64,000 bases of DNA from Clostridia bacterium (GTDB taxonomy: Bacteria > Bacillota > Clostridia > TANB77 > CAG-465). The notes beneath the pieces were generated by a model. That model saw only the letters and a list, made by a program, of their open reading frames with translations. It searched no databases and had not been told where the DNA came from. A program made the position numbers and the translations under genes. The stretch is from positions 186,001 to 250,000 of the forward strand of contig JAQSXK010000001.1 of NCBI GenBank assembly GCA_029256705.1, written 5' to 3'. Below are positions 13,693 to 31,845 of this stretch, piece after piece (position 1 is the first letter of the stretch; every line of letters starts with the position of its first letter).

Positions 13693-13710
13693 AAAAGCGT
13701 ACAAAAGTAA

Positions 13711-13753
13711 CTAAAACAAAGCACTTACAAACTATGTAAGTGCTTTGTTTTAG
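13711..13753. terminator. Perfect 19-bp hairpin terminator shared by converging genes
   Basis: Arms 13711-13729 and 13735-13753 with a 5-nt loop. It ends the plus-strand 75-residue gene and the minus-strand giant LRR gene. Confidence 0.85.
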
Positions 13754-13784
13754 TTTATTTTTATTATTTAAAATAAATATATTT

Positions 13785-16700
13785 TTAAGATATATAATTT
13801 CTATATAAATAATAATATAATTTATTTTTATATGTGTTTACAACTGAATTTGGTACATCTATAGTAAGTCCAGAATTTATTGGAAATACTCCACTACCCA
13901 ATAATATTGGAGGAACAGTTCCACTAAAATTAATTCCTGTTAAGGAAGTACAATTATCGAAGCTATTACTAGATATAGCTACTACTGATGCAGGTATTGT
14001 AATAGTTCGTATAACACTTGAACCAGAAAATGCACCTATACCTATAACTTTAGTTGTACTTAACATACTATATGCATTTCCTGTTTTTGCATTTGGATAT
14101 TTTATTAAAGTTTCATTACTAAAATCATATAAAACACCATTAGTTGCTTTAAAAAAAGTATTACTTGCATTAACATTTATAGTTCTAATTGATGTATTAC
14201 CTGCTAAAAATCCGTTTCCAACATTATTTAAGTACCTAGGTAATGTAATAGTTGTTAAATTAGTAGTATTGTCAAAAGTTGTTGCTGCTATAGATGTTAC
14301 ATTATATACATTACCACTTACATTAAATGATTCTGGAATAACTAATGTTGTATCATTTCCTGTATAAGATATTATTTCTATCTCGTTACTATTTATGACG
14401 TTATATGAAAATGATCCAGTATAAGTAACTCTTTCCATTACCTCATCTGGCCAAAGTGGAGCTGTAAATCCGGTAGCGCCAGTTGGTACAGAAATACTAT
14501 AATTATATAATCTCCATATTATAAATGTTCTATACGCAGGAAAACTATTTGCTCCAACAGTAGGTGCCTGCATTACACTTATTGTAAAGTTTGTATTTGG
14601 CCCTGCTGCTCCACCTACACCACCGTAATATGGATTATAAAAGGCATAATTTCCTATTGTAATTAAATCTTCGCCTAATATTACACTATTCATTCTACAG
14701 TTACTATTAAATGCATATTCATCAATAACCTTAACACCATTAAAAATTATATTAACCAAATATTCACAATCTTCAAAAGCATGTTTTCCTATGTATGCTA
14801 ATCTATTTGCTGTTAAGTTAGATATGTTTCTTCCTTTAAATGCATAATTTCCTATTGATATCACAGATGAAGATAATGTTGCTGACCATGTTTGTCCACC
14901 TACCTCAGCTACGTTATAGTATGCATATTCTCCTATTGAAATGACATTCATTGTTTGAGAGTTTACTGTAAATGAAGCTGGCACAGTATATCCAGTTGTT
15001 AAATTAGCACCATGATATTCAATTATTTCCCAACCAGTTACAGGTGAGTTATCTGAATTATTTTTAGTTACAGATTTTATAGAATATTCACCAATATCGA
15101 AAGTAAATGGTGATTGTATATAGCTTCCAATAATTATTCCTGTTCCATAAATATAATTTATAAATTCTGACGGCATAGAATTTTTATATGCATCCACATA
15201 AGTATAAACACTAGATAAGTTGCCATTAGGAACGTATATCCTAAGCCTATTTCCTATTTGTGTTCCAGCATTTAAAAATGCGTTAGATCCAAACACAATA
15301 TTCATAGTTCCTGATTCAGCATTACCTCTTGTAGAGCTGAAAAATATTTGTTCAATTGCAGTATCATTTTCAAATAGATTTTTACCTAGATTTGTTATTG
15401 TTCCTAAATTAACATAGTTTAGGTTACTATTTTCAGCAAAAGCATAATTTCCGGCAGTTGCTAAATTACTAAAACTAATACTTTGTAATTTATTACTTAT
15501 AAAAGCATAATCCCCTACTTTTGTTACATTATTTGCTGTAACAGAGCTTATTCCATTCAATGCATTAAATGCATAATTTCCTATATTAAGTAAATTCGAA
15601 TTAGATATTGCAAATGTATTATTTGGTACCATTTTAGCAAATTTATACGAATAGTCTCCTACTGATATTAAATTATATGTTTCATTATTTACAGTTAATG
15701 AATTTGGTAATGTATATGAACTCTCTATATCTGCTCCATGGTATTCTATTATTTCAAATCCATTTACATTTACAGAATTTGCATTTGTTTTTGTTACTTT
15801 TCTTACACTAAATACACCAATATCCCATGGTATATTAGCCTGTGAATAGTTGCCTATTATGGTACCTCTTGGATAGAAGTATTCTTTATATTCACTTGCA
15901 AATAGAGTTTTATATGTATCTGAGTATTGTAATCCATTTGAAGCTATTGCATCTGTTACATATATTCTAAGTCTGTTATTTGTTAAATTTCCAACATCAG
16001 TTATAGCAGTATTATTATATGATAAATTTAAATCCGTAGCTTCAAAAAATATCTGCTCTAATCTATCCAAATTGTATAAAGCATTTGCACCCATATGTTT
16101 TACAGTTCCTAAATTTATGCTATACAAAGTTAACATATTAGATAATGCATATTCTCCTATAGAATTTAATTTACTAAAACTTGCATTAGTAAGCGAAGAA
16201 TCTTCAAAAGCATGATCACCTAATGTAACTAATGAATTTGCAATTATAGAGTTTATACCTTTTGTTCCCTTGAATGCATTATTACCAATCTTAAGTAAAT
16301 AATTGCTATTTATATCTACACTTAGACCAGTTTCCAAAGTAGTGTGAATAAATGCGTTATCCCCAACAGATATTACATTTAGCGATAAACTGTCTACATT
16401 TATTGAGGTTGGAAATACATATCCACTTTGTAAATTTTGTCCGTGATATTCTATTATTTCAAATCCATTTACATTAACACCGTTTGCATTTTTTAAATCT
16501 ACAACTTTAACAGTAAATTCTCCAATATCAAAAGGAATAGGTGCGTTTATATAACTTCCGACCATTATACCTTTTTCATATACGTATCCTTTATACTGTG
16601 GCAATACCATCTTATAAAAATCTACGCTTGCTGGATCGTTTGGTACATATATTCTAAATCTATTATTAGCATTAATTCCTATGTTTGAAAAATTTAGTTC

Positions 16701-19700
16701 ATTAATATTCATATTATTTACATCATCACAGCTGAAAAATAATTGTTCAAGGTTTATATTATTAGATATTGCATTTTCGCCAATTACACTTGCCTTACCT
16801 ATATTTAAACTATATAATGTACTAATATTAGCAAATGCTTCTTTACCAATTGAATATAAATTATCAAAAACTGCTTTAGTTAATCTTGTAGAGGTAAATG
16901 CATACTCACCTATTGTTTTAACTTTTGGAGCATTTATTGAATTAATTTTTAATCCATAAAATGCTTTGTTCCCAATGTTTATTATATTAGAATTATTTAA
17001 ATTTACACTGTTATTTAATGCAACTGTAGCATTTCTGTATGCATAATCACCTACTGAAATAACATTTTTAGTTATTTCATTTACAGTTAATGTATCTGGT
17101 ATATTATATGAGGAGGTTAAATCCGCTCCCTGATATGAAATAATTTCCCAACCATTTACGTTATTATTGTTATAATCTGTTAAATTTACTTCTTTTACTG
17201 TATATACACCAAAATTATATGGTATTGCTACATGAGTATAATTTCCTATTATTGATCCTTTTGTATATAAATATTGTTCATTTGAAGAAAATAATTTTTT
17301 ATACAAACTAAGATATGTATTTGATCCACTGCTAACACCATCCGGGACATAAATACGAAGTCTTCCATCTAGATATTTTCCCCACTCACTAAATACTGCT
17401 GTATCACCAACAGTTAAGTTAATAACTTCCGCATTATTCACAGTTTTTGTTGAAGTATTGTTAAAATACACCCTACCTATTTGTGAACAATTATATAAAG
17501 CTTTATCTCCAATTGATTGAACTTTTCCTAAATTAATTTCATATAAACTTGTATTATCCTTAAACGCATTACTTCCTAAACTTATAAGATTTTCTAATGT
17601 TACATTTTGTAATGGAACATTTTCAAAACAATTTTCACCTATTGTAGTGATATTATTTGCATTTAGATTAATCAATTTTGTATTGTAAAAAGAATAATTA
17701 CCTAATGAAACTATATTTTGCAAATTAATATCTATTATATTTCTACTATAAAATGCATTATCTTTTATAGTTTTTATTGAACTAGGTATACCAACTGTTG
17801 TTCCTGAAGTAGGTGTTATTATATCCCTAAATGACGAAAAACCTAACTCATTTACGATATATTGTTGATTATTATATGATATGTTACTTGGTATTGTAAA
17901 TGTGCTACCAACACTTATTCCACTTACAAATAGCGATATTCCAACTCCACCAACTGTATCATATATGAAATAGTTTTTTGAATCAGCTAAATGTGCTGTT
18001 CTACGTACATATTCACTTCCTATATTTGCTGCACTTTGGTAAAGATTTAATGAATACTCTGGAACGAAATATCTAGCACCTGCCTCGGTATTATCGAAAA
18101 CTTGACTTTCAATTGTTGGAGGATTTAATCCCTCAAATTTAATATATTTGGCACTAGTAAATGCTCTGGTTTCTATTTTTGATACTGTATCTGGAATTGT
18201 TAAAAAATTAAATTTCTCTATTCCACTTGAAGGAATTCTACCTATAGTATCATTTTCAAAAGCACCCGCACCTATTTCTACTAAAGTTTTTGGCAATATA
18301 ACAGTTCTTAAGCTTACCTTATTAGATAAAGCATTAGATGTAATTCTATCTACAGTACTGCCATCTTTTACTCTTGCATTAGCTATATCTAAATATTCTA
18401 ATACAGGCAGTTCATTACTTTTCAAAAACGTAAAGTTTGTATTTTCCATGTAGTTAGCATTAACTGTATATACTATTATTTTTTTTATACTTGCAATACT
18501 TGCCATTACATCTGGAGAATTAGCTTCAGTGAAATATTTAATAAATAAATTTCTAATTGTATCGTCCGCATTTCTTATATATACTATATATGCATTTTCT
18601 TCTCCAACTACGGGTATTACAGAATCTATTATATCTGTATAAGAGATATCTGCTTGTCCAAAATTGTCTGACCCACCAACTGTAATATCTGAGGATGCTA
18701 CACCTTTTACTATCAAAGTGTTACCATTATTTGGCCCTTTATATGGAGTTGCATTTGTAGGTAGTAGTATTGATTTACCCCCCTCAATTCCTCTTATTAT
18801 ATTTAAGTTATATATATATATTTGTGGTTTAGTAAATGATTCTAACAACCTCATATTTTGAAACTGAACTTGAACTATACTTCCATTATTAAGTATTTCT
18901 ATATTTGTTGAATTAGGTTCAGCTATTACATTACCCACAATAACCCCTGGTGCTATTGTAAGTCTTGTATTTGACATTATATTTAAATCAGCTGGAATAT
19001 TGCCAATTTTATTATTTATAATTCTAACATTATCTAGTAAAATTCCATCTTCTTCTTCATTTTGCAAACCATTTAAAGTTATTTTACCACCAACATATAT
19101 ATCGTATGTTCCATTTTCACCAATTAAATGAACTTTACTTTTTGGAGTATTAATAAATAACTGATTACCAACATCGATTTGGCCAGTACCCGAGGTATTA
19201 ATATTTAAATCCCCAAGTTCAACAAAATCATAAACTAAATCACCTGTTACAATAAGTTTATATCCATTTAAATCTAAGTTTATTCTTCTAGATATATCTA
19301 CTGATCCTTCTATAGTCATATTAGATATTAATTTAATTGTATCTCCTGGTACAGCATTGCTAATTGCATTTCTAAATTGTAATTCGTTTTCTACTTGCCA
19401 TACTTCACCTTCTGAAGGCCCATCCATGTTTGCACCAACCTGTGTTACATATACATTTGTATGAAGAGATAAAGCTTCATTTGCGTATAAAGAGCTATTT
19501 GCAGTTGAATACATACCATAATCTATTCTAAAATATCTTTTATTATTTTCGGCAAATTCTGGATCTAAATCTATAATACCATTTGTAATTGAGTTTCCTA
19601 TAGTTGAAAGATTAGATACAGGCAATGAACTATCAAACTCAACATTATCTGAAAGAGGATTTGCAGCTGCATATGATTTTAATTTTGTATCATTTTGAGC

Positions 19701-20519
19701 TGTAATTACTGATGCATTTACTCCGTCGGTTATCTCATAAAATCTATAATACATAACACCTGAATTTGCAACTGTAGCATCTAATTGAAATGTTATATAG
19801 TATTCAATATCTAACGTTCCCACATTTTCTATTTCAACAAATTTACTATTTCTAGATGTAACACCTAAGTTAGTTTCATATATTAAAGTGGCAACATCAT
19901 CTATATCTCCTAAGAAAGATCCATTTTTATCATATTGTTTTATTTCGCAATTAATATTCCCTATTCCAAAAAAAGTTCCTTTGCTTATATACTCATTATA
20001 AAACCATGAAAATATCGAATTTCCTACTAATAAAAACATAATTGTAAATATAGCTAATTTCAAAGAAAATTTATTAAATTTTAAAAGTTTTATATTTTCT
20101 TTTATTTTACCATATGATATCTTATTAGTTAAATTTTTACATTTATTTTTAATTTTAAAAACTAATTCTTTTGACTTTGATTTAAAAGTCAACTTTAAAT
20201 TAGTAAAATTTTTGTTTATTATTTTTTTACTTGCTATTTTATTTTTTATTTTATCTTTTCCTTTGTATTTTATTTTATTATTATCTTTTAAAGTCTCAAT
20301 TTCTGAATTTTTAACTGATTTAATATCTTTATTTATTTTTGTAGTACTTTCAGCAATAGGGTCATCAAAATCAGAAAGATAATTATCTTTCTTTTTATTA
20401 ATATTCTCATCAAATTTATAGCTGTCTTCACATTTTCTAAAATTATTAATTAGTTCTTTTATACTTTCATTATTTTCGAAGATATCATTATGCTTTTTAC
20501 CAAATCCGTTATTTTTCAC
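13785..20519 (-). CDS. Giant BspA-type leucine-rich repeat surface protein with SipW-type N-terminus
   Basis: A 2244-residue protein starting at GTG 20519 (AAGGTG site). It has an unusually long basic cytoplasmic tail (residues 1-150), a transmembrane segment at about 152-170 and then the SipW-type junction SIFSWFYNEY. The early ectodomain (about 180-380) is TasA/camelysin-like. The rest is LRR_5/BspA repeats (IGNKAFYG, VGDYAYKFA, IGEYAFNS). Four large repeats of about 230 residues occur between 14660 and 17790. No LPXTG or other C-terminal anchor is visible, so retention probably depends on the fibre system. It follows the signal peptidase gene by 4 bp and is the last gene of the cluster. 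Role inferred: adhesin or matrix component. Confidence 0.88.
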   Translation of the reverse strand: MKNNGFGKKHNDIFENNESIKELINNFRKCEDSYKFDENINKKKDNYLSDFDDPIAESTTKINKDIKSVKNSEIETLKDNNKIKYKGKDKIKNKIASKKIINKNFTNLKLTFKSKSKELVFKIKNKCKNLTNKISYGKIKENIKLLKFNKFSLKLAIFTIMFLLVGNSIFSWFYNEYISKGTFFGIGNINCEIKQYDKNGSFLGDIDDVATLIYETNLGVTSRNSKFVEIENVGTLDIEYYITFQLDATVANSGVMYYRFYEITDGVNASVITAQNDTKLKSYAAANPLSDNVEFDSSLPVSNLSTIGNSITNGIIDLDPEFAENNKRYFRIDYGMYSTANSSLYANEALSLHTNVYVTQVGANMDGPSEGEVWQVENELQFRNAISNAVPGDTIKLISNMTIEGSVDISRRINLDLNGYKLIVTGDLVYDFVELGDLNINTSGTGQIDVGNQLFINTPKSKVHLIGENGTYDIYVGGKITLNGLQNEEEDGILLDNVRIINNKIGNIPADLNIMSNTRLTIAPGVIVGNVIAEPNSTNIEILNNGSIVQVQFQNMRLLESFTKPQIYIYNLNIIRGIEGGKSILLPTNATPYKGPNNGNTLIVKGVASSDITVGGSDNFGQADISYTDIIDSVIPVVGEENAYIVYIRNADDTIRNLFIKYFTEANSPDVMASIASIKKIIVYTVNANYMENTNFTFLKSNELPVLEYLDIANARVKDGSTVDRITSNALSNKVSLRTVILPKTLVEIGAGAFENDTIGRIPSSGIEKFNFLTIPDTVSKIETRAFTSAKYIKFEGLNPPTIESQVFDNTEAGARYFVPEYSLNLYQSAANIGSEYVRRTAHLADSKNYFIYDTVGGVGISLFVSGISVGSTFTIPSNISYNNQQYIVNELGFSSFRDIITPTSGTTVGIPSSIKTIKDNAFYSRNIIDINLQNIVSLGNYSFYNTKLINLNANNITTIGENCFENVPLQNVTLENLISLGSNAFKDNTSLYEINLGKVQSIGDKALYNCSQIGRVYFNNTSTKTVNNAEVINLTVGDTAVFSEWGKYLDGRLRIYVPDGVSSGSNTYLSLYKKLFSSNEQYLYTKGSIIGNYTHVAIPYNFGVYTVKEVNLTDYNNNNVNGWEIISYQGADLTSSYNIPDTLTVNEITKNVISVGDYAYRNATVALNNSVNLNNSNIINIGNKAFYGLKINSINAPKVKTIGEYAFTSTRLTKAVFDNLYSIGKEAFANISTLYSLNIGKASVIGENAISNNINLEQLFFSCDDVNNMNINELNFSNIGINANNRFRIYVPNDPASVDFYKMVLPQYKGYVYEKGIMVGSYINAPIPFDIGEFTVKVVDLKNANGVNVNGFEIIEYHGQNLQSGYVFPTSINVDSLSLNVISVGDNAFIHTTLETGLSVDINSNYLLKIGNNAFKGTKGINSIIANSLVTLGDHAFEDSSLTNASFSKLNSIGEYALSNMLTLYSINLGTVKHMGANALYNLDRLEQIFFEATDLNLSYNNTAITDVGNLTNNRLRIYVTDAIASNGLQYSDTYKTLFASEYKEYFYPRGTIIGNYSQANIPWDIGVFSVRKVTKTNANSVNVNGFEIIEYHGADIESSYTLPNSLTVNNETYNLISVGDYSYKFAKMVPNNTFAISNSNLLNIGNYAFNALNGISSVTANNVTKVGDYAFISNKLQSISFSNLATAGNYAFAENSNLNYVNLGTITNLGKNLFENDTAIEQIFFSSTRGNAESGTMNIVFGSNAFLNAGTQIGNRLRIYVPNGNLSSVYTYVDAYKNSMPSEFINYIYGTGIIIGSYIQSPFTFDIGEYSIKSVTKNNSDNSPVTGWEIIEYHGANLTTGYTVPASFTVNSQTMNVISIGEYAYYNVAEVGGQTWSATLSSSVISIGNYAFKGRNISNLTANRLAYIGKHAFEDCEYLVNIIFNGVKVIDEYAFNSNCRMNSVILGEDLITIGNYAFYNPYYGGVGGAAGPNTNFTISVMQAPTVGANSFPAYRTFIIWRLYNYSISVPTGATGFTAPLWPDEVMERVTYTGSFSYNVINSNEIEIISYTGNDTTLVIPESFNVSGNVYNVTSIAATTFDNTTNLTTITLPRYLNNVGNGFLAGNTSIRTINVNASNTFFKATNGVLYDFSNETLIKYPNAKTGNAYSMLSTTKVIGIGAFSGSSVIRTITIPASVVAISSNSFDNCTSLTGINFSGTVPPILLGSGVFPINSGLTIDVPNSVVNTYKNKLYYYLYRNYIS
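14660..17790 (-). repeat. About four ~700-bp internal repeats in the LRR gene
   Basis: Copies begin near 17770, 17090, 16400 and 15700, with a partial copy from about 14965. Each encodes VISVGDYAY-like LRR strands, an RLRIYVP segment, a GxIxGxY segment and VNGxEIIEYHGAxL. Boundaries are approximate, taken from protein landmarks. Confidence 0.8.
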
Positions 20520-20523
20520 TATT

Positions 20524-21051
20524 TCACCTTCTTTTTTTTAATAATTTTCTCAAATCTTCAAACTCATATCTAAATAATATACAAAGTGGAACTATTATTA
20601 TAAATATGAAACCAAATATATTTTTCATTAGTCTACTAATTATACTTATAGTAAATATTTTATATACTACAACACCATATACTTGTTCTTGATATACTAT
20701 AGGATCTATAACTGAATTAGCTATTCCTTTTGTATAGTATATATACCTATCATTTTCAGTTATTATTTGTTCAACTTGGTGTGTTATTATCTTATCTTTG
20801 AAGTCTCTTGTCATTCCCAAGTATGATATAACATCTCCAACTTTTATCTTGTTGTAATCTGTCTTTTTAACTATTATTACATCTCCAACCTTTAGTTTTG
20901 GATCCATACTTGCAGTAGATACTGAAAATACTTTTAGTCCAAATAATCCATCCTTTTGCGGAAATATTCTTGTATATAATGCAATTATTATAAAAAAAAC
21001 AATTGCAAAAATTATTATGTACTTTAATATATTTAAAATTTTAGTTTTCAT
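20524..21051 (-). CDS. SipW/ER-type signal peptidase I (second copy, variant Asp region)
   Basis: A 175-residue membrane protein with two helices (about 8-27 and 133-160). The catalytic serine is Ser48 in STASMDP and His91 in ITHQV stands where bacterial Lys would be, marking the ER/SipW type. The conserved KGDxN box reads KGIAN (108-112), losing the first aspartate, but D116 remains. It lies between the 216-residue secreted protein and the giant LRR gene, so it probably cleaves these. Four bp separate it from the LRR gene. Confidence 0.88.
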   Translation of the reverse strand: MKTKILNILKYIIIFAIVFFIIIALYTRIFPQKDGLFGLKVFSVSTASMDPKLKVGDVIIVKKTDYNKIKVGDVISYLGMTRDFKDKIITHQVEQIITENDRYIYYTKGIANSVIDPIVYQEQVYGVVVYKIFTISIISRLMKNIFGFIFIIIVPLCILFRYEFEDLRKLLKKRR

Positions 21052-21072
21052 TAATCTCTCCCAAACTGTATT

Positions 21073-21723
21073 TTATGGATTAATAAACATTATTTTATTA
21101 ATTGACAAATTAGTATCTTGTATTTCATTTGTAGCCTTTTCATCTATATGAATATTGAAATATATAGATATCATATCATTTGCAGGTATATCTAATTTGT
21201 TAATAAAATCAAAATAATAATGTTCATTAACTGCGTCATATTCTACTATATCCGCTAGTTTATATATAAATAATTTTGGACTTGTACATCTTATTTGCAC
21301 TACACTTTTAAGTAAATCTACATCACCATATATTTCAGAAAAAACAATTTTTGTTATAGAAAGTACAGTATCAATATTATTATATATATCGAAACGATAC
21401 TTTTGTGTAGATCCAGGTGCTAATGTTGCAACTTGTATTAAAGGCTGAGATGAAGATTGTGATTGCTCAACATATTCATTATCTTTAAGTACAAACAATT
21501 TAACATCAACATTATTATCTGTTACTATAAGTCGCCCAGTATAATCAATATTTTCTGCTTCTGAAGCGTTTGTTACCATCCACGCAAATACACCCATCAA
21601 AGCTAATATTGTAATACTAAAAGATATATTTAATATTATACTTGTTTTGTTTTTCTTGCTTACTTTTTTTTTATCTATTATTTCATATTTTAGCTCTTTT
21701 TTACTAACTTTTTTTTTAAACAT
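21073..21723 (-). CDS. SipW-dependent-type secreted protein (216 residues)
   Basis: A basic cytoplasmic N-terminus (KKKVSKKELK), a transmembrane helix at about 28-48 ending GVFAWMVTNASEAEN, then a beta-rich ectodomain (LAPGSTQKYRFDIYN, PANDMISIYFNI). The FAWM junction matches the YAWF signature of SipW-processed TasA/camelysin-type proteins. It has no anchor at the C-terminus. It lies 21 bp before a signal peptidase gene. Probable minor fibre or adaptor subunit; function inferred from the family. Confidence 0.75.
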   Translation of the reverse strand: MFKKKVSKKELKYEIIDKKKVSKKNKTSIILNISFSITILALMGVFAWMVTNASEAENIDYTGRLIVTDNNVDVKLFVLKDNEYVEQSQSSSQPLIQVATLAPGSTQKYRFDIYNNIDTVLSITKIVFSEIYGDVDLLKSVVQIRCTSPKLFIYKLADIVEYDAVNEHYYFDFINKLDIPANDMISIYFNIHIDEKATNEIQDTNLSINKIMFINP

Positions 21724-21742
21724 TTATCATACCTCAGTAATT

Positions 21743-22828
21743 CTAAAAAATTACTTGCGTCGCATAAGATTCTGGTGATGTACCTAAAACCTCAGCAATT
21801 CTAACATATACAGTTGTGTAACCTGAAAATGACATATTGGTATTTGTCACTGGTGTCCATACCGTAGTTTTATTATTTGTTAGAGCCCATTCCATATTTG
21901 TTGTTAAATTATTTATAGTGTAATTTGATGTATTTGCTGTAACATTTGGCGCATTTAATAATACATTTGCACTGCCAAATTTTAAATATACATCTAATAA
22001 TGAGCTTGCAATAGTATTAGTACAATCTACATCTCCACCTTCAAGCCAAATTCTCACAGTCATTTTAATTTGAGTATTAGAAGGTATTGTTGTAATTAAT
22101 TTATTTACATCGATAGGATCATCGTCATATATTCCTCTTCCGCCATTTTTATTATCAAATGTCCTTACAATTTGATCACCGAGTAAACTTGGTGAAATAT
22201 TATTATATATAAATTCACCTTCCGAAATAACCGCTTTAGTTGTAAATGGTTTATCTATTCCATTTTCTTCTTGATTTCCAAAAAGCATATTAGAATTTGT
22301 TGTTCCATTATCAAAACTAGTAGATATTCTTATTGCGTTTGCTGCGATTCCTGTAATATGTGAATCTTTATGTATATAAACATGTTTTGCATATTCCTCT
22401 GTTTGCAGATAAAAATCATAGTCTATATATCCATACTCTATCATATTTTCTCTAGCTAGTAATGTATCTATTTTAACAAATTTAGGTTTTTGAATTGCTA
22501 AACCTTGTCCAAAATCAATTCTATAAAAATTGATATTGTCCGCAGAAGAAACTTGTTTTAATACAAAATCATCAAAGTTATCGAATAACTGATTAAGACT
22601 TAATGTTGTTCTACTCGGACTATCTGGTGAAAGTTTTATTGTAAGTCCATCTGCAACCGTTACTTTAATTTGACTTCCAATTATTTGTGGATTAGCCTTA
22701 TCTGAAAACCAAGAATATGTAGAAAATACAAATAAGCTGATTATTCCAAACAATATAATGATTTGAATAAATATTTTTTTGTTTAAATTAAATTTCATAT
22801 ATATATTTCTACTTTTGTTTTTTTCCAT
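21743..22828 (-). CDS. SipW-dependent-type secreted protein (361 residues)
   Basis: A transmembrane segment (about 17-38) ending FSTYSWFSDKANPQ, the SipW-type junction, followed by an ectodomain with DGLTIKLSP, a Gly/Asp-rich middle and IWLEGGDVDCTN, a segment also present in three sister proteins of this cluster. That shared IW.EG.D motif near the C-terminus suggests a common beta-sandwich fold. Start ATG 22828 has an AGAAGGG site. Probable fibre subunit. Confidence 0.78.
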   Translation of the reverse strand: MEKNKSRNIYMKFNLNKKIFIQIIILFGIISLFVFSTYSWFSDKANPQIIGSQIKVTVADGLTIKLSPDSPSRTTLSLNQLFDNFDDFVLKQVSSADNINFYRIDFGQGLAIQKPKFVKIDTLLARENMIEYGYIDYDFYLQTEEYAKHVYIHKDSHITGIAANAIRISTSFDNGTTNSNMLFGNQEENGIDKPFTTKAVISEGEFIYNNISPSLLGDQIVRTFDNKNGGRGIYDDDPIDVNKLITTIPSNTQIKMTVRIWLEGGDVDCTNTIASSLLDVYLKFGSANVLLNAPNVTANTSNYTINNLTTNMEWALTNNKTTVWTPVTNTNMSFSGYTTVYVRIAEVLGTSPESYATQVIF

Positions 22829-22849
22829 AATCTTTTCCCTTCTGCAGGA

Positions 22850-23821
22850 TTATTTAGATAAACCTAAAAAACTTATATTTATCTTAAATTGGCCACCTTT
22901 TAAAGAATAAATGGCTTCTCTATCATTTCCTTCAACCCATATTCTTATTGTAATTGCCCTTATATTTTCATTACTATTTTGACTATTGTTTTCAATATTA
23001 GTTAATGGAGTATCACCGCCACTTGTATGTGTTTCATACGAAGCATCTATATCTTCAATAACGTTTGATAAATCTTCTAAATAATAACTATCATAATCTA
23101 AAACTTTTGTATATTTATATTGTTGTTGATCTGTAGAATCTAAATATCCAATACATTTATTATTTTCATATTTTACTTGATAACCTTTATTTGGTGCCCA
23201 AACAAATTTTGGTGTATTTTGTTCTACAAAAGTCCCATTTACTAAATCATTTTCTATAAATGCAATTCTAACTGCTCCAGCTATTAGATCTCTAGAAAAA
23301 TTTCCATCAGTACTTTCTCTTATAACCTCACTTGAATTAATCAAATTAATTATATTTTTGCCTGCTGCAGGGTAAACTTCAGATTTTTTTTCTAAGTAAA
23401 CAGTTGATTCAGTTGCAGATTTAAACAAAACTTTATATTCTAGATAATCTTCATTTTTTACGGCAGGAATAAAATTAAGTGGTGTACCATCTTCACCTTT
23501 TGCATTTGGTTTATAAAAAGTAATACCATCACTAGTAGACTCTTTATATAAAATAAAATTATCTACTATATTTAATTCCGCTATTTTAGACCAAGTAAGT
23601 CCATTGTCTAAGGAGATTTCCATAGTATTGACTGGTGCTGTTGTAGCACTTAAGTCACTAACTCCCACATTTTTGTTATTTATAAACCATGCATATGTTG
23701 TTATAAGTAATAAACATATAACTATAAATAATTTTATTGATGAAGATAGTAATTTTTCCTTTAATATTTGTTTTCTTGGTATTAATGATTTGCATTCTAC
23801 ATTTTCTACAATTTTATGCAC
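22850..23821 (-). CDS. SipW-dependent-type secreted protein (323 residues)
   Basis: Starts at GTG 23821 (GGAGGTGG site). A transmembrane helix at about 28-47 ends ITTYAWFINNKN, the canonical SipW junction. The ectodomain contains MEISLDNGLTW, an asparagine-rich region and ITIRIWVEGNDREA, the cluster's shared IW.EG.D motif. It follows the DUF2357-like gene by 18 bp, linking the AAA+ pair to the secreted proteins in one transcript. Probable fibre subunit. Confidence 0.8.
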   Translation of the reverse strand: MHKIVENVECKSLIPRKQILKEKLLSSSIKLFIVICLLLITTYAWFINNKNVGVSDLSATTAPVNTMEISLDNGLTWSKIAELNIVDNFILYKESTSDGITFYKPNAKGEDGTPLNFIPAVKNEDYLEYKVLFKSATESTVYLEKKSEVYPAAGKNIINLINSSEVIRESTDGNFSRDLIAGAVRIAFIENDLVNGTFVEQNTPKFVWAPNKGYQVKYENNKCIGYLDSTDQQQYKYTKVLDYDSYYLEDLSNVIEDIDASYETHTSGGDTPLTNIENNSQNSNENIRAITIRIWVEGNDREAIYSLKGGQFKINISFLGLSK

Positions 23822-23839
23822 AATTCCACCTCCGCTTTA

Positions 23840-24961
23840 TTACTTACGTATTGTTTGAATTGCCTTTTTAATATTATTATCATGTCTTTTAATACATCTA
23901 CAAATTTCATTATATATTGTTCTTTGCATTTTAATTTTCTTTTGTTTATATTGATCAAAAAATTCAGAAAGCATTTTTTTAAATTCTTTAGCATCAATAT
24001 CCTTATTTTCTTTTATAAAATCTTGAATTGCTTTATTCAAATAATACTCATTTGATTTTTCTTCTGAATCAGAATCTTTATTGTCTGGTGATAAACTACT
24101 TAGTATATTATAATTAATAAAAGATGTTAATAAATATTTAAGCTGAATTTCTTTGTCCGAATCAATAATTAAATTTTCTTTAACCTCTTTTCTATCTTTA
24201 TAATCATATCTTTCAATAAACTCCCATAATTCTAAAGCCTTTTTAAAGTTAGTATTTTTTAATATAGTATTAGTTTTTCTAATTGGTGACCTTACTGGAA
24301 GAGTTCCTATTAAAGACTTCATAAGCGGACTTTTAATAAAATCTTGAACTATCAATTCAATTCTCTCAATTCTAGTATCCATATCTAATTCTTGTCCATC
24401 TAAATTTATTAAATCCTCATATGAATTAGACTCTAAGTTAAGACTTATGTTTATTAATTCTGTATTAATTTTTGTATGTGCGTTAAATTCTAATTTTTTC
24501 TTACTTTTTGAAAATGATCCTTCTTTAACAGCATCTTTTCTTTGCCTTACAAACATATATAAATTATTAAGCAAAGAATATATGAATCTATTTTCATAAA
24601 GATCAAAAGTTTCTTCTTTATGTATGTTTAAGACCGCACTTGGTGTTATAGTTCCATCTGCGGTCACGTCTTGTATTAAGTTAGTATGCTGCGCCAAGTG
24701 TCTTATTGTCTCCATTGATATTTTTTTTGCTTTTTCAATAGGAACAATTTCTTCTTCTTGAGCTAAAAACTTTTTTGGAACTCTTACTATTGCATCTAAA
24801 TATTGTATTGTTTCTTCAATTTTATCTACCCAAGTATAATCAAATTGAATACTATGTATATCCGATTCAATTTTATACTTAGAATTATTTTTTGAAATAA
24901 ACTCTTGTAACTTATTCTCATCAAGGTTACTTACTAAATTCATAATTTCATTAGTTTCCAC
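23840..24961 (-). CDS. DUF2357-like partner of the AAA+ ATPase (nuclease domain not seen)
   Basis: A 373-residue soluble protein with GTG start 24961. The N-terminal third (YTWVDKIEETIQYLDAIVRVPK) and the following ENRFIYSLLNNLYMFVRQRK resemble DUF2357 proteins, which pair with McrB-like ATPases in McrBC-type systems. Those normally end in a PD-(D/E)XK nuclease; here the C-terminal third is a Lys/Glu-rich helical region with no such motif that I can find. It lies 12 bp after the AAA+ gene, so the two are probably co-translated partners. The family call is moderate and needs a profile search. Confidence 0.55.
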   Translation of the reverse strand: METNEIMNLVSNLDENKLQEFISKNNSKYKIESDIHSIQFDYTWVDKIEETIQYLDAIVRVPKKFLAQEEEIVPIEKAKKISMETIRHLAQHTNLIQDVTADGTITPSAVLNIHKEETFDLYENRFIYSLLNNLYMFVRQRKDAVKEGSFSKSKKKLEFNAHTKINTELINISLNLESNSYEDLINLDGQELDMDTRIERIELIVQDFIKSPLMKSLIGTLPVRSPIRKTNTILKNTNFKKALELWEFIERYDYKDRKEVKENLIIDSDKEIQLKYLLTSFINYNILSSLSPDNKDSDSEEKSNEYYLNKAIQDFIKENKDIDAKEFKKMLSEFFDQYKQKKIKMQRTIYNEICRCIKRHDNNIKKAIQTIRK

Positions 24962-24973
24962 ATTAATACCCCA

Positions 24974-26527
24974 TTACATCATTTTCTTTAGTCTTAATAA
25001 ATAAGATTTACATTCATTCATGTTTTCCTTACCATAAGTTTTACTTAAGAAATCTATGAATCCATCAATTTCATCTCTTATAAAAGATAAATTCAATTGT
25101 TCAAATTTTCTTAAAATTTTATGTGCTATAACATAGTCTATACCGTCTATTTCAGAACCGCCACATGCCATATATGCAGGTACAAATTCTCTTAATTGTT
25201 TAACAATACGATTACCAAAAGCCATACGAAAATGTTCGATAACATAGTCATCCATTTTTGTTAAATTCTCCATATTAACTTCAGATACATGATATTTTGT
25301 ATTTGCTTGTGCAAATAAGCTTTCTAAATACTTACTACTTAATCTTATTCCATCTGTAGGTGGCGCATCAAATTTTTCACCTTTATCATTTATATCTATT
25401 GGCATTGCTCTATCATAAACTTTATCTGTTACCATAAAAGTAGAATCATCATTGTTTATTGTACCTATGTACCACATATTATCTGGCAATTTTAGTTTAC
25501 CATCTGGAAGTCTAACAGGATCTGTAGGCCAAACACTTGGAACTAAATCAATAATCCATTCATCCCTACTAGGCATTTCTAGAATAGATAACATTTCTGC
25601 AAAATAATACTCAACACGAGCTATATTCATTTCATCAAGTATTACTATGTATACTTGATCTACATATGAAGCCTCATACATTTTTTTTAATACTTCTGTT
25701 TCATTAAATTTCTTAGTAAATTCATTAAAAAAACCAAATAATTCAGTTCTATCACGCCAAGATGGTTGGACAGAAGCAATTACTGCATCATTATTTATAA
25801 ATTTTCCCCATGCATAAGGAAGAGATGTTTTACCAGTTCCAGATATACCTTGTAATATAATAAGTCTATTTGAAGCAAATGAAGCTAGAAATAATCTTAT
25901 TATATCTATTTTATAATATAACTTCAATTTATTAGCTGCAAAATTTCTAAATCTTTCACATATATCTATCAAAGATAGATCATTGTTTGTTGGCTCTGGT
26001 ACATAATTTTTCATTTCTTCATCTATTTGTATAAGTTTAAAGAAACGATTATCATTTGCATGTTCTAAGTTATCCTCATCTTCCTTTTTTACTGGATTAC
26101 CATTTTCATCAAGTTCTACATTTTCTGCTAAATCTTCACCTGGTTTTAATCCAAGTTGGGATACTTTCATCGCAAATAACTTCTCTTTTTCAAGTGTTAA
26201 TTTAACAACATCATTATTTAATTTTCCTAATTCATCTAATAAAGCTTCTTGCTCTACTAGAGATTTTCTTATTCTTATATACTTTTTAAAAAATAATACA
26301 AATAGTAATATTATTGAGCCTACGAGTACAATAACTAGTATAATTGAAATTACAACAAATACCCATTGACCACCCTTAATATCATCTGAATACATTTTAA
26401 TGATATTGTAATAGTCCCCCACATTTAATATTTGTTTTAATCCATTGAAAATTCCTTTAAATATTTGAGCTAAGCCATCAAAGAATTGTGACATAAAATC
26501 AAATAAAAATTTAATGTATACATCCAT
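24974..26527 (-). CDS. Membrane-anchored McrB/MoxR-like AAA+ ATPase
   Basis: A 517-residue protein; ATG 26527 has the AAGGAG site at proper spacing, whereas a GTG 9 nt upstream touches that site. An amphipathic start (1-35) precedes a transmembrane helix (54-80) and a coiled linker (85-175). The AAA+ core has Walker A GISGTGKT (227-234), Walker B ILDEMN (296-301), sensor-1 GTINND (355-360) and the arginine element VYDRA. The DEMN and GTINNDDST motifs are typical of McrB/AAA_5 ATPases. The membrane anchor is unusual for McrB relatives. Encoded between a signal peptidase and its DUF2357-like partner, it may drive assembly or remodelling of secreted fibres. Confidence 0.82.
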   Translation of the reverse strand: MDVYIKFLFDFMSQFFDGLAQIFKGIFNGLKQILNVGDYYNIIKMYSDDIKGGQWVFVVISIILVIVLVGSIILLFVLFFKKYIRIRKSLVEQEALLDELGKLNNDVVKLTLEKEKLFAMKVSQLGLKPGEDLAENVELDENGNPVKKEDEDNLEHANDNRFFKLIQIDEEMKNYVPEPTNNDLSLIDICERFRNFAANKLKLYYKIDIIRLFLASFASNRLIILQGISGTGKTSLPYAWGKFINNDAVIASVQPSWRDRTELFGFFNEFTKKFNETEVLKKMYEASYVDQVYIVILDEMNIARVEYYFAEMLSILEMPSRDEWIIDLVPSVWPTDPVRLPDGKLKLPDNMWYIGTINNDDSTFMVTDKVYDRAMPIDINDKGEKFDAPPTDGIRLSSKYLESLFAQANTKYHVSEVNMENLTKMDDYVIEHFRMAFGNRIVKQLREFVPAYMACGGSEIDGIDYVIAHKILRKFEQLNLSFIRDEIDGFIDFLSKTYGKENMNECKSYLLRLKKMM

Positions 26528-26558
26528 ATATTGCACTCCTTAAATTGTATTACTTTTC

Positions 26559-26585
26559 AAAAAGCATAATATAATTATGCTTTTT
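26559..26585 (-). terminator. Terminator-like hairpin inside the surface-fibre cluster
   Basis: A perfect 12-bp stem (26559-26570 / 26574-26585, 3-nt loop) whose minus-strand 3' arm ends in TTTTT. It lies between the first signal peptidase gene and the AAA+ gene, so it may reduce transcription of the downstream half relative to the fibre genes. Confidence 0.6.
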
Positions 26586-26593
26586 TTTATTTG

Positions 26594-27154
26594 TTATTTT
26601 GCTGTAATAACTCCATCTTGTTTTATCCTTACCAAAATTAAAACAAATTTAACTAATTGGTATATGAATATTATAAATAATGGTAATACTATACAAACAA
26701 AAAAACCAACTTTTGATTTGAAGAAATCTAATAAGTACCCACCTTTAGAAATCTTAATACCAGAATATTTAGAAACAACATCCCCCGGTGCTACTTCCTT
26801 TTCATCTTGTAATTGATTATTATCACCCTTTGTTATAAAAGACATTACTCCTTTATCATTTTTTACTTCTTTGATTCTGTGAGTTATTATTACTACTTTT
26901 TCTTTTTCAACTGAGAAAAATGAAATTACATCTCCCTCTTTTAGAGACTTAGTATCGAATTTCTCACTAATAATCAAGTCACCAGTATATATTGCTGGTT
27001 CCATTGAAGCAGTTTGTATGCTAAGTGGAATATAACCTAAAAAATTTGATACTCCTTTTTCTTTAGTATTAAGAGATATTATTGTAACAGCCGCAGCTAT
27101 TAAAATAAAAATCCATATTAAAACATTTAAGATAATTTTAAATTGTTTTTTCAT
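26594..27154 (-). CDS. SipW/ER-type signal peptidase I
   Basis: A 186-residue membrane protein with helices near 8-27 and 158-175. Catalytic Ser50 (QTASMEP), His92 (IITHRI) and the intact KGDNN box (109-113) plus D117 define an ER/SipW-type serine-histidine signal peptidase. It directly follows the 338-residue putative major fibre subunit (44-bp gap), the same order logic as sipW beside tasA in Bacillus. It probably releases the cluster's YAWF-type substrates. Confidence 0.9.
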   Translation of the reverse strand: MKKQFKIILNVLIWIFILIAAAVTIISLNTKEKGVSNFLGYIPLSIQTASMEPAIYTGDLIISEKFDTKSLKEGDVISFFSVEKEKVVIITHRIKEVKNDKGVMSFITKGDNNQLQDEKEVAPGDVVSKYSGIKISKGGYLLDFFKSKVGFFVCIVLPLFIIFIYQLVKFVLILVRIKQDGVITAK

Positions 27155-27198
27155 TTCTTCACCTCACGTATATTTATTAACGTATTAATATATTTTAA

Positions 27199-28215
27199 TT
27201 ATGTATTGTTTTTAGATATTTGAATATTAAATGTTATATCTGAACCAGAAGCATTATTTTCACAATCAACATCTTGTCCTTCAATCCAAGCATATACTCT
27301 AACTTTTGTAATACCTGCAGTTATTGCTAAAAGTTGTGTAAATGTAGTTGGTGATGCTGATCTTTGGAATGATGGACTTGTTGAAGGAGATACTAATTTA
27401 AAGAATTCTGCATCTGTAGCATTTAATCTTATATCATCACTAGCAATTATTGGTGCATTTACACCATAATAGTTAGGTAATGCTGGACCTGTAACTGTTG
27501 TTGTAATTCCATATACATCATTTGCTGCAGCTACTCCAGCAGGAGTATGAACATTTGCATTAGGCTCCCAAAATATTGCAGCTGTAGCACCTTTTAAAGC
27601 TTGTGCTGCTGCTGCAGTAGAACCAACTGGAACACTTCCCTCTTTTAGAAAAGCAACTCTAGCAGAATTTTTTAATCCTAAATCTATATTTTTAAACAAA
27701 ACATCAGCTCCAGGTGTTAAATATAAAGTTTCTGCATCAGCAGATTGAATAAATAAATCAAAAGCTATAAAATCACCTGCAGTTCCTGCTGATCCTGAAG
27801 CATCCGCTGCCTCAGTTGTTTTTTCAGATAATAAAATGTTATAACCTTGTGCAACGTTTGAAGATACTGATCCTTTATACATATTTAAAAATCCTGCAGC
27901 AGTATCTATTGTACCACCACTAGAAACCGGCACTAACGCAGCCGGAACCTGATTTTTGTGATTTGTATATGCTTCTCCTTTTATATCTTCAGTTGTTAAA
28001 CTTGCTTTCCAGTTTGTTCCATCCATAGATATTTGTATACCATTAGAAGCAGAAACGTTTACATCTAGTGAACCAAGTGTAACTGTCGCATTAGCTGTAA
28101 ACCATGCATAAGTTGCAGTTGTTAAAGATATTGCAGTAACTAATAATGTTAATAACGCTATTACTACTGTACGTCTTGTTACTATTTCATCCTTTTGTAC
28201 TTTTGTTTTTTCCAT
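27199..28215 (-). CDS. Putative major SipW-dependent fibre subunit (TasA/camelysin-like)
   Basis: A 338-residue protein with a transmembrane segment at about 17-38 ending TTATYAWFTANATVTLGSL, the best SipW junction of the window. The ectodomain is rich in Ala, Thr, Ser and Asn with few Lys, carries NGIQISMDG near the N-terminus and VYAWIEGQDVDCENN near the C-terminus. Its composition and position immediately before signal peptidase gene 26594-27154 suggest the abundant structural subunit. An AAGGAAATG-type site precedes ATG 28215. No anchor is visible. Confidence 0.82.
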   Translation of the reverse strand: MEKTKVQKDEIVTRRTVVIALLTLLVTAISLTTATYAWFTANATVTLGSLDVNVSASNGIQISMDGTNWKASLTTEDIKGEAYTNHKNQVPAALVPVSSGGTIDTAAGFLNMYKGSVSSNVAQGYNILLSEKTTEAADASGSAGTAGDFIAFDLFIQSADAETLYLTPGADVLFKNIDLGLKNSARVAFLKEGSVPVGSTAAAAQALKGATAAIFWEPNANVHTPAGVAAANDVYGITTTVTGPALPNYYGVNAPIIASDDIRLNATDAEFFKLVSPSTSPSFQRSASPTTFTQLLAITAGITKVRVYAWIEGQDVDCENNASGSDITFNIQISKNNT

Positions 28216-28286
28216 TTTTCTTCATTTCCTTTCCTTTTTAAAATACTTTTTATTTTCACTAAAAACAAAATAATTGGTTGCACCTT

Positions 28287-29042
28287 TTATTTGTCTCCTA
28301 ATTCGTGAATTGTCATCTTTAGTTTCATCTCACCCCCTAAAATATCATCTTTACACTCAGGATCATCCCCTTCTAACCAAATTACTATTGTATATTTATC
28401 AATTTCACCAGGTTTAAAATTCATTCTTTCGTTTGCCATTACCTGCCTTGTTGATAAAAATTCAGTAGTGCCATTCTCTGGCTCTTTTGTTACTTTATTT
28501 TCTTTTGCATACACTGTTTTTACATCATTTTTGTATACCATAACTCTTATTGCTTCATCAACACCGTTTATAACTGAAGTTATTTCAATAATTGATTCAT
28601 ATTCTGCATCTTCTTTTCCTGCATTCTTAACAAAAAAAGTATATCCTATAAAGTTTTTATCATTATGTGGTCCTTCATGATCTTGTATATTATCTGGCAG
28701 CCAACTTTCTGCTATATTATCCATATAATCTAGTCTATCTGCCTTTAGTATCATTGATGTTTCATGAAAGTCCTTATAATTGGATATCAATATATTTTGC
28801 GTTGCTTTTAAATTTGGATCTAGATTAATTGTAAAATTTCCTGTTTCATTTACTATATATACAACACCATAAACTAAAGACAAAAACGTTAATAATGTTA
28901 TTACAAAAAGTGCTAAAATTCTAGTAAATAGATTTCTTTTATGTACTTTTTCTGCTGTAACATTTACGTATAATTTTTCCTTTTCTGCTCTTTCAAATGT
29001 TTTATTTACTATTTCTTGTTTTGTATCTTTTGTTTTTTTCAA
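28287..29042 (-). CDS. Membrane-anchored SipW-cluster protein (about 251 residues)
   Basis: The preferred start is TTG 29042: the GGAGG site lies 5 nt before it, whereas the alternative TTG 29054 overlaps that site. A charged cytoplasmic N-terminus (residues 1-45) precedes a helix (about 45-68) and an ectodomain with FTINLDPNL, FFVKNAGKEDAEYE and VIWLEGDDPECKDD, matching the IW.EG.D..C motif of its sisters. It lacks the AWF junction, so it may stay membrane-bound. Possibly the base or anchor of the fibre, analogous in position to TapA; inference only. Confidence 0.7.
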   Translation of the reverse strand: MKKTKDTKQEIVNKTFERAEKEKLYVNVTAEKVHKRNLFTRILALFVITLLTFLSLVYGVVYIVNETGNFTINLDPNLKATQNILISNYKDFHETSMILKADRLDYMDNIAESWLPDNIQDHEGPHNDKNFIGYTFFVKNAGKEDAEYESIIEITSVINGVDEAIRVMVYKNDVKTVYAKENKVTKEPENGTTEFLSTRQVMANERMNFKPGEIDKYTIVIWLEGDDPECKDDILGGEMKLKMTIHELGDK

Positions 29043-29059
29043 GGTATCCTCCAATTATA

Positions 29060-30181
29060 TTAATGTTTAAGTAGATAACTTTCCTTTATATGCTCTTTTA
29101 TATCTACTGTATCATCTAAAACAATTAAGTCATTATTTTGACAAAAATCAATCAAATCACTACTATTATCTTTTAAATTGTTATTCAAAAATATATAATC
29201 AACTGTATCTTTAAACAAATAAGTATTATGATTAAGCTTATTCATATCATATATAGCAATTTTAAAACCAGATTTTTTCAAGTTTTCGACAATATCATTA
29301 TTTTTTATAAAAGATCTATAATCTATATTTAAGCAAACTCTCATCTTAATTTTAGGATTATTAAATTTTTCTACTAACTCCTCTAAAAATTCTGAATTTG
29401 TAATAAAATTTTCTGGTAACTTAATAATAAAATTTGATCTTTTCTTTTCAATTAATAACAATTTTAATATATATACTGAAAGCAATTCTGCAGTAATTAT
29501 CGTAAAATCCAAATTCAGCTTTTTTACTTTAATTTGCTCTTCAATATCACTAATCAAATATTTCTTTAAAACTTTAATATCATATACAAGTATCGTATCA
29601 TAAAAATCTGGTTTAATTTGTATAAAGTTTAAGTGAAACTTGTCCCCATCTATAATTTTAAAGAAATTTTTATCATCAAGAACATTTTCTTTAATTTTTT
29701 CATTTAGTTCATCTTCTACATATTTTACTTTATCTAAAAATTCTTTTTCAAAAATATCCATATTTTCTTCTAATACATTAGTTAGTATATTTGAATATCT
29801 GATTTTAGGATTTGCAAGTACATTAACCTTTTTATTAATTTCTAGAGAAAGTAAAATAATTTTTGATATTAAAATTATATATTCGTTATTATCATATATA
29901 TCACTTACTACTTTATCATTATCTATAAAATTTATTGTATAATTAATAATTCTTCTAAGTTTTAAATCAATAATATTATTTTCATGTATAAATTTATTTA
30001 CCTTATAAGTAACTTGTATTTTATTCTTTAAATCATCATCCATGAATTCTTCTATAATATCTTGAAATAACTTTACATTCATATATTTCTTATCCAAGGC
30101 ATTCTTCATTAGTATTTTAGTGTACTCAGTAACATTGTCTTTTTTTCTCTGATAGTAAATATCAACAATATTAGCATCCAT
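29060..30181 (-). CDS. Degenerate EAL-like protein at the head of the surface-fibre cluster
   Basis: A 373-residue cytoplasmic protein, mostly helical in the first half. The C-terminal 150 residues resemble an EAL fold in order: FIIKLPENFI, MRVCLNIDYRSF, LKKSGFKIAIYDMNK, DYIFLNNNL and LIDFCQNNDLIVLDD. Active-site residues look lost (no EAL motif; YD instead of the DD pair). Such degenerate EAL proteins often bind c-di-GMP or partners without hydrolysing it. It is the first gene after the promoter, so it may regulate fibre assembly. Alternative: an unrelated TIM-barrel-like protein. Confidence 0.5.
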   Translation of the reverse strand: MDANIVDIYYQRKKDNVTEYTKILMKNALDKKYMNVKLFQDIIEEFMDDDLKNKIQVTYKVNKFIHENNIIDLKLRRIINYTINFIDNDKVVSDIYDNNEYIILISKIILLSLEINKKVNVLANPKIRYSNILTNVLEENMDIFEKEFLDKVKYVEDELNEKIKENVLDDKNFFKIIDGDKFHLNFIQIKPDFYDTILVYDIKVLKKYLISDIEEQIKVKKLNLDFTIITAELLSVYILKLLLIEKKRSNFIIKLPENFITNSEFLEELVEKFNNPKIKMRVCLNIDYRSFIKNNDIVENLKKSGFKIAIYDMNKLNHNTYLFKDTVDYIFLNNNLKDNSSDLIDFCQNNDLIVLDDTVDIKEHIKESYLLKH

Positions 30182-30274
30182 GTAAAACCTCCAACATATT
30201 TTGCTACATTTTCCTTAACTTTGATATACAGTAATTATTTTGGTTATAAAGTAAATATTACCATTTTCTCCATT

Positions 30275-30303
30275 ATTATATATTAAAGAAAAAATAAAAT
30301 CAA
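30275..30303 (-). promoter_or_regulatory. Promoter of the surface-fibre cluster
   Basis: Minus strand TTGATT (30298-30303), exactly 17 nt, TATAAT (30275-30280), about 90 nt before ATG 30181. The only other plausible box is TTGTCA/TATATT with 18 nt, upstream of it. The rest of 30182-30480 shows no gene. Confidence 0.65.
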
Positions 30304-30486
30304 GAGATTTTATCCTAAATATAACAATTTATGTTATTTATTGACAATATTTGTATAAATATTCCTAATATAAGGCGTTTTTGTAATATTAATGTAACAT
30401 TTCTGACGTATACTAGCTCATTATGTCATTTATTTGCAGTGTTTTAACCAATTCTATGACTTATAATTAATAAAGTATAAAAAAAT

Positions 30487-30517
30487 AACGAGTTTTCATC
30501 ACTTTCAAAAACCCGCT
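30487..30517 (-). terminator. Terminator of the 31.3-30.6 kb membrane-protein gene
   Basis: A 10-bp stem with G-U wobbles (30487-30496 / 30508-30517) followed on the minus strand by ATTTTTTTATA. It separates that gene from the cluster promoter. Confidence 0.7.
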
Positions 30518-30640
30518 ATCTGCAATATATTTTTAAATACTTTTATTTGTTTTCCATTAAATATAACATCTCGAACTACTATAAAAACTTAATTTGACGT
30601 ATCTCACATTTCAGTGACAATATTTTTATTTAATTCAATT

Positions 30641-31451: not shown

Positions 31452-31525
31452 TGGAGGCGCCAATCAGATTTGAACTGATGATCACGGTTTTGCAGACCAT
31501 TGCCTTACCACTTGGCTATGGCGCC
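31452..31525 (-). tRNA. tRNA-Cys (anticodon GCA)
   Basis: Cloverleaf with acceptor GGCGCCA/TGGCGCC, the anticodon GCA in CTGCAAA and encoded CCA end. It is the last tRNA of a five-gene operon. Confidence 0.95.
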
Positions 31526-31576
31526 GTTTATATATAATATTCATTATGTTTAAAATTATTCCATATATAAAAAAAA

Positions 31577-31652
31577 TGGAGCGGGAGACGGGGCTCAAAC
31601 CCGCGACCTTCGCCTTGGCAAGGCGACGCTCTATCAACTGAGCTACTCCCGC
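31577..31652 (-). tRNA. tRNA-Gly (anticodon GCC)
   Basis: Acceptor GCGGGAG/CTCCCGC, anticodon GCC in TTGCCAA, T-arm GGTTTGAGCC and encoded CCA. Confidence 0.95.
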
Positions 31653-31670
31653 ATCATTATGATACATATA

Positions 31671-31746
31671 TGGTGGCTAGAGACGGAATCGAACCGCCGA
31701 CACGGGGATTTTCAGTCCCCTGCTCTACCGACTGAGCTATCTAGCC
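31671..31746 (-). tRNA. tRNA-Phe (anticodon GAA)
   Basis: Acceptor GGCTAGA/TCTAGCC, anticodon GAA in CTGAAAA, T-arm GGTTCGATTCC and encoded CCA. Confidence 0.95.
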
Positions 31747-31759
31747 TTATAAAAAAAAA

Positions 31760-31836: not shown

Positions 31837-31845
31837 ACAAATAAA

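Follow-up and report, generated by a model that had tools for sequence, protein, structure and literature searches.

This analysis concerns a cluster of eleven genes on contig JAQSXK010000001.1 of a Clostridia bacterium with a genome of 1.39 Mb and a guanine plus cytosine (GC) content of 28%; the cluster lies in a stretch of 64,000 nucleotides of this contig, which is referred to here as the window. It consists of eleven open reading frames (ORFs) on the minus strand, running from 30181 down to 13785, all of which were confirmed at the coordinates in Table 1. In order from A to K, they code for a degenerate EAL protein, a protein with a transmembrane (TM) segment and a beta-sandwich, a SipW-type protein, a signal peptidase, an AAA+ ATPase, a DUF2357 protein, three SipW-type proteins (G, H and I), a second peptidase and a leucine-rich repeat (LRR) protein. 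The ten intergenic gaps measure 5, 71, 44, 57, 12, 18, 21, 19, 21 and 4 bp, which agrees with the gene run described in a first-pass annotation of the window, and plausible ribosome-binding sites precede most of the genes. That annotation had assigned the ATPase and its DUF2357 partner to an extracellular fibre system, where they would act in its assembly, quality control or length control, and knew of no characterised system of this make-up. The claim of novelty does not hold in full, since McrB systems of this kind, with an NxD motif and a TM/coiled-coil segment and located next to signal peptidases, were named CoCoPALM in 2024, in a single paragraph and as an uncharacterised class (Bell et al., eLife 2024, PMC11090510). 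The earlier reading is partly supported.

Table 1. Features of the eleven-gene cluster and its borders (positions in the window).
Gene	Feature	Coordinates	Strand	Evidence
A	Degenerate EAL-like protein, 373 aa, first gene; regulator/receptor candidate	29060..30181	-	
B	Protein anchored in the membrane by an N-terminal cytoplasmic/TM helix, followed by a beta-sandwich, without SipW-type motif; candidate fibre base	28287..29054	-	
C	Candidate for the major fibre subunit, with SipW-type signal (ATYAWF)	27199..28215	-	
D	SipW/ER-type signal peptidase (Ser-His)	26594..27154	-	NCBIfam SipW 3e-32; TIGR02228 2.4e-30, above cut-off
E	Membrane-anchored McrB-like AAA+ NTPase	24974..26536	-	E. coli McrB matched by family profile
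F	DUF2357 protein resembling the McrC N-terminus, no recognisable nuclease	23840..24961	-	Pfam DUF2357 E 1.1e-12
G	SipW-type-signal protein (TTYAWF); WVEGNDREA motif	22850..23821	-	
H	SipW-type-signal protein (STYSWF); WLEGGDVDC motif	21743..22828	-	
I	Small surface protein, SipW-related N-terminus (GVFAWM)	21073..21723	-	
J	Second SipW/ER-type signal peptidase (Ser-His)	20524..21051	-	NCBIfam SipW 7.7e-21
K	2244-aa BspA-type LRR surface protein	13785..20519	-	Pfam LRR_5 E 2.1e-92
	Terminator-like hairpin, end of operon	13709..13755	-	20-bp stem
	Terminator-like hairpin and T tail, end of preceding unit	30483..30521	-	
	Promoter-like site	30275..30303	-	-35/-10 match 10/12

The protein encoded by E belongs to the McrB-like nucleoside triphosphatases (NTPases), as its family profile matched E. 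coli McrB (6hz4) with an E-value of 1.5e-7. It is composed of a conserved amphipathic N-terminus, a single TM segment at about residues 57-84, a charged helical linker that appears heptad-like by eye, and the AAA domain. The hydrophobic segment is conserved in the family alignment and gave a weak match to FtsL (0.12). The AAA core is intact and contains the motifs GISGTGKT, ILDEMN, NNDD (TINNDDST, of the NxD class) and YDRA, with N-N-D-D being invariant in the family alignment (A6). F is short, while some of its relatives (L055) have long coiled-coil tails, and the DUF2357 match was obtained for 14 of 17 family members. No nuclease family was found among the 17 DUF2357 partners or among the eleven genes of the cluster by hidden Markov model (HMM) scans, which a diverged fold could escape. 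Peptidases D and J match the SipW models as well as the archaeal/endoplasmic reticulum (ER)-type models, and their active site is Ser-His, not Ser-Lys, with the serine located in TASMEP (D) and TASMDP (J) and the histidine in ITHR and ITHQ. The profile matches confirm the ATPase pair, the two peptidases and the 2244-residue LRR protein of the first-pass annotation.

The five SipW-type or related N-termini were likewise found again, namely TYAWF in C and G, TYSWF in H, VFAWM in I and FSWF in K; a SipW-type signal with the AWF motif is a feature of the TasA and camelysin fibre subunits. In K, the FSWF motif is located at about residue 170, in a TM segment behind a cytoplasmic N-terminal extension of about 150 residues; this lysine-rich extension (from 20519 back to about 20070) is odd for a signal-peptidase substrate. 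B, C, G and H have a C-terminal W-x-E-G-x-D motif in common (WxEGxDxxC domain), and its count of 104/129 versus 13/848 is partly circular because the SURF families were merged by homology, and serves only to say that these four proteins share the domain. No Pfam family was detectable in C, G and H, a Foldseek search with C gave no significant match, and a PDB sequence search with the surface-protein and DUF2357 profiles returned nothing useful. The AlphaFold2 (AF2) model of B shows one long N-terminal helix (residues 8-70) followed by a beta-sandwich, with a predicted local distance difference test (pLDDT) score of 86.5, and that of C a sandwich behind a TM helix (pLDDT 76.7). The top structural matches of C are weak, with the 0406 filament of S. 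acidocaldarius at Z 5.1 and the TasA fibre (8aur) at Z 5.0. B reached Z 6.5 against the TasA fibre, tied with several pilin-like and unrelated sandwiches, and both models are compatible with a TasA-like fold without proving it. No TapA homologue turned up, although no search aimed at TapA was made.

The association of these genes was followed in 49 usable loci, L069 and L070 being left out because their ATPase ORF was missed by a simple ORF caller. Soluble NxD-McrB loci (n=16), nearly all from other classes, served as controls, four of twenty having been dropped for lack of an ATPase ORF. The ATPase has a signal peptidase in its vicinity in 46/49 loci and in 0/16 controls (Fisher 1.5e-12), where the loci are related and their counts phylogenetically non-independent, and some control loci are bounded by short contigs. 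The three loci without a peptidase are two contig ends and one divergent locus (L085). In 40 of 47 cases the gene directly upstream of the ATPase is the peptidase, and the DUF2357 gene follows immediately downstream in 48 of 48; tandem AAA-DUF2357-AAA loci had a signal peptidase in none of five cases. In a maximum-likelihood tree, the peptidase-linked ATPases group in a single clade (98/95), separate from the soluble controls (100/100). The first-pass annotation had posed the question of whether homologues of the pair lie mainly beside defence genes without linkage to SipW-type genes, and the neighbourhoods gave the opposite picture. The ATPase itself is sporadic, being found in 6/56 near relatives at E 0.001 (one of them weak, 93.9 bits) and in 21/391 genomes of the class at 1e-30, and a scan of named genomes yielded 36 loci. 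Its relatives occur across gut and sediment bacteria, and the nearest relative with the operon among the genomes compared is L042, labelled 'Clostridia bacterium'. In two congeners the operon occupies different chromosomal places, as orthologues of the window's flanking genes sit on other contigs in G002. The architecture with two peptidases, an LRR protein and a degenerate EAL is found in the window, L042 and L044, and L088 is alike except that its EAL-type protein is recognisable by Pfam. The B family was found in 27 of the 49 loci. Among the order-level relatives, L013-L016 contain extra pairs of a signal peptidase and a small protein (210, 190 and 323 aa, no Pfam match) and an EAL-like gene directly before the ATPase, with two such loci in G040.

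EAL-type genes, degenerate EAL and/or membrane GGDEF-EAL, are present in 35/49 loci compared with 0/16 controls, and two kinds can be distinguished. The first comprises EAL-only proteins encoded shortly upstream of the B-type genes, in which the catalytic residues are mostly lost, and A occupies this position. The second, belonging to a second subtype, is encoded downstream of DUF2357; it is a membrane GGDEF-EAL protein whose EAL is intact and whose GGDEF motif is degenerate. A matches Pfam EAL with an E-value of only 0.027 and is too diverged for a Pfam call, but its family profile aligns (hhalign E 6.6e-6, probability 84.8) to the degenerate EALs that take this place in related operons. The catalytic residues EAL, DDFG and QG are absent from A, which thus lacks the metal-binding and catalytic residues of EAL phosphodiesterases. 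Ten related operons (L058, L061, L063, L065, L070, L075, L084, L090, L091 and G256:C2) are preceded by a cyclic di-GMP (c-di-GMP)-I riboswitch (RF01051) on the coding strand, and in seven of them (L061, L063, L065, L075, L084, L090 and L091) the first gene begins 14-160 bp behind the riboswitch or has a called start that overlaps it. The chance expectation for such riboswitches is about 0.03, a rough figure based on 37 riboswitches and 3 kb of same-strand upstream sequence that ignores kinship. No riboswitch was found in L042-L045, L013-L015 or L088. Diguanylate cyclase genes lie directly beside the riboswitch that heads a CoCoPALM operon at L063:4315-5661 and L090:890-2512, which makes a local synthesis-sensing circuit possible. 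The host genome encodes 5 GGDEF and 2 EAL domains, and the Ruminococcus subtype (L053, L055, L074 and L076) has neither an EAL gene at the locus nor GGDEF. Literature searches returned nothing on a c-di-GMP link of these operons, so the connection is new as far as these searches could tell. Neither this recurrent connection nor the shared C-terminal WxEGxDxxC domain had been noticed in the first-pass annotation.

SipW-type substrates and two Ser-His peptidases are thus encoded together with E and F, and this linkage is conserved and clade-specific. On balance, we lean slightly towards reading the cluster as an operon of the CoCoPALM type whose products export, process and probably assemble extracellular fibres of a TasA-like kind. 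It would encode a c-di-GMP-connected, energy-driven platform for export and assembly and would not serve restriction. D and J would mature the candidate fibre subunits C, G, H and I and the putative LRR adhesin K, and B, which would keep its membrane helix and cytoplasmic tail, may form the membrane base of the fibre. E is predicted to form a ring under the membrane that would be activated by the McrC-like stalk protein F; McrC activates McrB, which provides the model for F acting on E. NTP hydrolysis by E may then drive or gate the maturation or polymerisation of subunits at the base formed by B, and A, whose place is taken elsewhere by other EAL proteins, also in operons headed by c-di-GMP-I riboswitches, may license the machine in answer to c-di-GMP or be a scaffold derived from such a receptor. 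A restriction-type defence motor has probably been re-used here for surface-fibre biogenesis. We put forward only tentatively, and regard as rather doubtful, the more specific proposal that a c-di-GMP-licensed, McrB-derived membrane motor, with a McrC-like protein as activator and B as base, would be the first case of an NTP-driven machine that assembles SipW/TasA-type fibres, which are sortase-independent, in Gram-positive bacteria.

Several observations weigh against this reading. Both the fibre and the E-F complex are putative and predicted from genes; the surface proteins are recognised in just about two thirds of the loci, and the scores for a TasA-like fold are low (Z 5.0 for C and 6.5 for B, with ties to unrelated sandwiches). 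There is no c-di-GMP-I riboswitch in the window or the host genome, and the c-di-GMP link of the window subtype hangs on a degenerate protein. In addition, L050, L052, L057, L071, G068 and G384 keep a degenerate EAL gene in genomes with no or only marginal GGDEF domains, and a degenerate EAL therefore need not read c-di-GMP. The tapA-sipW-tasA operon of Bacillus and sipW-bsaA of Clostridium produce fibres, and their listed genes include no such ATPase (PMC7395162), from which it follows that the ATPase is not generally required for fibres of this kind.

The fact that SipW-TasA operons function elsewhere without an ATPase would also be expected if E and F were a segregase for membrane quality control, extracting misfolded or unprocessed SipW substrates and preventing a jammed export site instead of driving assembly. 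AAA+ rings held under the membrane by one TM segment, such as FtsH, often act on membrane proteins, and the conserved TM segment and charged linker of E as well as its position next to the signal peptidase gene are in line with such a role. We nevertheless consider it unlikely, since there is no protease domain and no protease gene consistently nearby, the DUF2357 partner in McrBC is an activator of the NTPase and not a protease adaptor, and the link to EAL proteins and riboswitches would be left unexplained. That link, with its recurring EAL/GGDEF-EAL genes and riboswitches, and the consecutive order of signal peptidase, AAA and DUF2357 genes would fit with a gate, in which E-F would be an NTP-dependent switch that controls the activity of the SipW peptidase or the expression of the operon and has its sensor in the EAL-like protein, without a force motor. 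Against a mere switch, which we judge quite improbable, all motor residues of the AAA domain (Walker A, Walker B, NxD and the arginine of YDRA) are invariant, so that NTP turnover appears to be needed.

An anti-phage function, either as a McrB-like system with the surface as sensor or by acting on nucleic acid at the membrane, is suggested by the McrB ancestry of E, its sporadic distribution in the class, the different chromosomal sites in the two congeners and the PADLOC candidate PDC-M26A, which matches 23/23 family ATPases, where the label is that of a candidate and the ATPase model alone matches. However, the 140 neighbour proteins of the loci hit three PADLOC families (at 1e-20), whereas the 127 control neighbours hit 92, among them methylases, BREX and restriction enzymes. 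Together with the missing nuclease families in the DUF2357 partners and the near-invariable signal-peptidase linkage, this makes defence a very remote prospect. The restriction/defence reading was left unsupported by the nuclease search, the neighbour scan and the controls, and the assignment of the pair to a surface-protein system, as made in the first-pass annotation, stands.

In the current view, the assembly of SipW/TasA-type fibres needs no energy source of its own. If the proposed fibre platform is correct, a membrane AAA+ machine that is conserved next to their peptidases and descends from restriction systems would represent an exaptation from defence to surface biogenesis, and a class of 'candidate defence' genes would obtain a function, tied in Clostridia of gut and sediment to c-di-GMP. 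The question of a motor for Gram-positive fibres would become directly testable.

At the borders of the operon, terminator-like hairpins mark its end and that of the preceding unit, and no convincing same-strand terminator was found inside it in a scan that returned 8 terminator-like sites versus 2.8 expected. The promoter of the first-pass annotation is present as a motif, but the region contains 142 promoter-like matches versus 152 in shuffles, which is not above background, and it is plausible only by its position. Five tRNA genes and the RNase P RNA lie just upstream on the minus strand (31452-32393), and downstream on the same strand (12186-13094) a protein with an RsgI-like anti-sigma-factor central domain is encoded. 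A sister variant of the ATPase system, L078-L082 (e.g. L079:3762-13103), consists of AAA-DUF2357-AAA tandems with TM segments and without a signal peptidase. The tandems of L079, L080 and L081 adjoin related large proteins of up to about 1,380 aa, with a transglutaminase-core domain in the one scanned (L079), and the L079 tandem also adjoins rpoA/rplQ.

Among known systems, type IV restriction by McrBC and CoCoNuT shares the McrB-family AAA+ core and the DUF2357 partner with the window. In contrast to these, the window has a TM anchor, no nuclease was found, neither PD-(D/E)xK in the McrC homologue nor an adjacent HEPN or other nuclease, and there is no DNA-specificity domain and no methyltransferase or defence neighbourhood. 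Degenerate EAL receptors of the FimX/LapD type have the EAL fold, have lost the catalytic residues and are encoded with a surface-appendage system. A resembles them in fold, in the lost residues and in being encoded with a surface system, but is so diverged that it receives no Pfam call, and its c-di-GMP binding is putative. The tapA-sipW-tasA operon of Bacillus and sipW-bsaABCRSD of Clostridium perfringens, in which BsaA is under the control of a two-component system, encode a SipW-type peptidase and substrates with the AWF signal, from which extracellular filaments are built (PMC7395162). The window encodes the same kind of peptidase together with AWF-signal proteins that are candidate filament subunits, and differs from them in its AAA+/DUF2357 pair, which is not listed in either (PMC7395162).

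The closest agreement is with CoCoPALM as outlined in the paragraph of Bell et al., that is, an NxD McrB-like NTPase on a TM segment, a McrC/DUF2357 partner and adjoining signal peptidase genes. The class also has a coiled coil fused to the McrB and usually to the McrC homologue, for which the charged linker of E is a candidate counterpart, while F is short. E has the NxD in place of the NxxD motif, with D or E as the usual next residue (TINNDDST), and is fused to an FtsB-like TM segment; F is the adjacent McrC/DUF2357 homologue, and the signal peptidase association is represented twice in the window. EAL/GGDEF proteins, c-di-GMP riboswitches and SipW/TasA are not mentioned in that paragraph, and compared with the class as named there, the window subtype stands out by its two peptidases, the shortness of its DUF2357 protein, a degenerate EAL and a giant LRR protein. 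The present analysis adds to CoCoPALM this architecture of two peptidases, an LRR protein and a degenerate EAL, together with the c-di-GMP circuitry.

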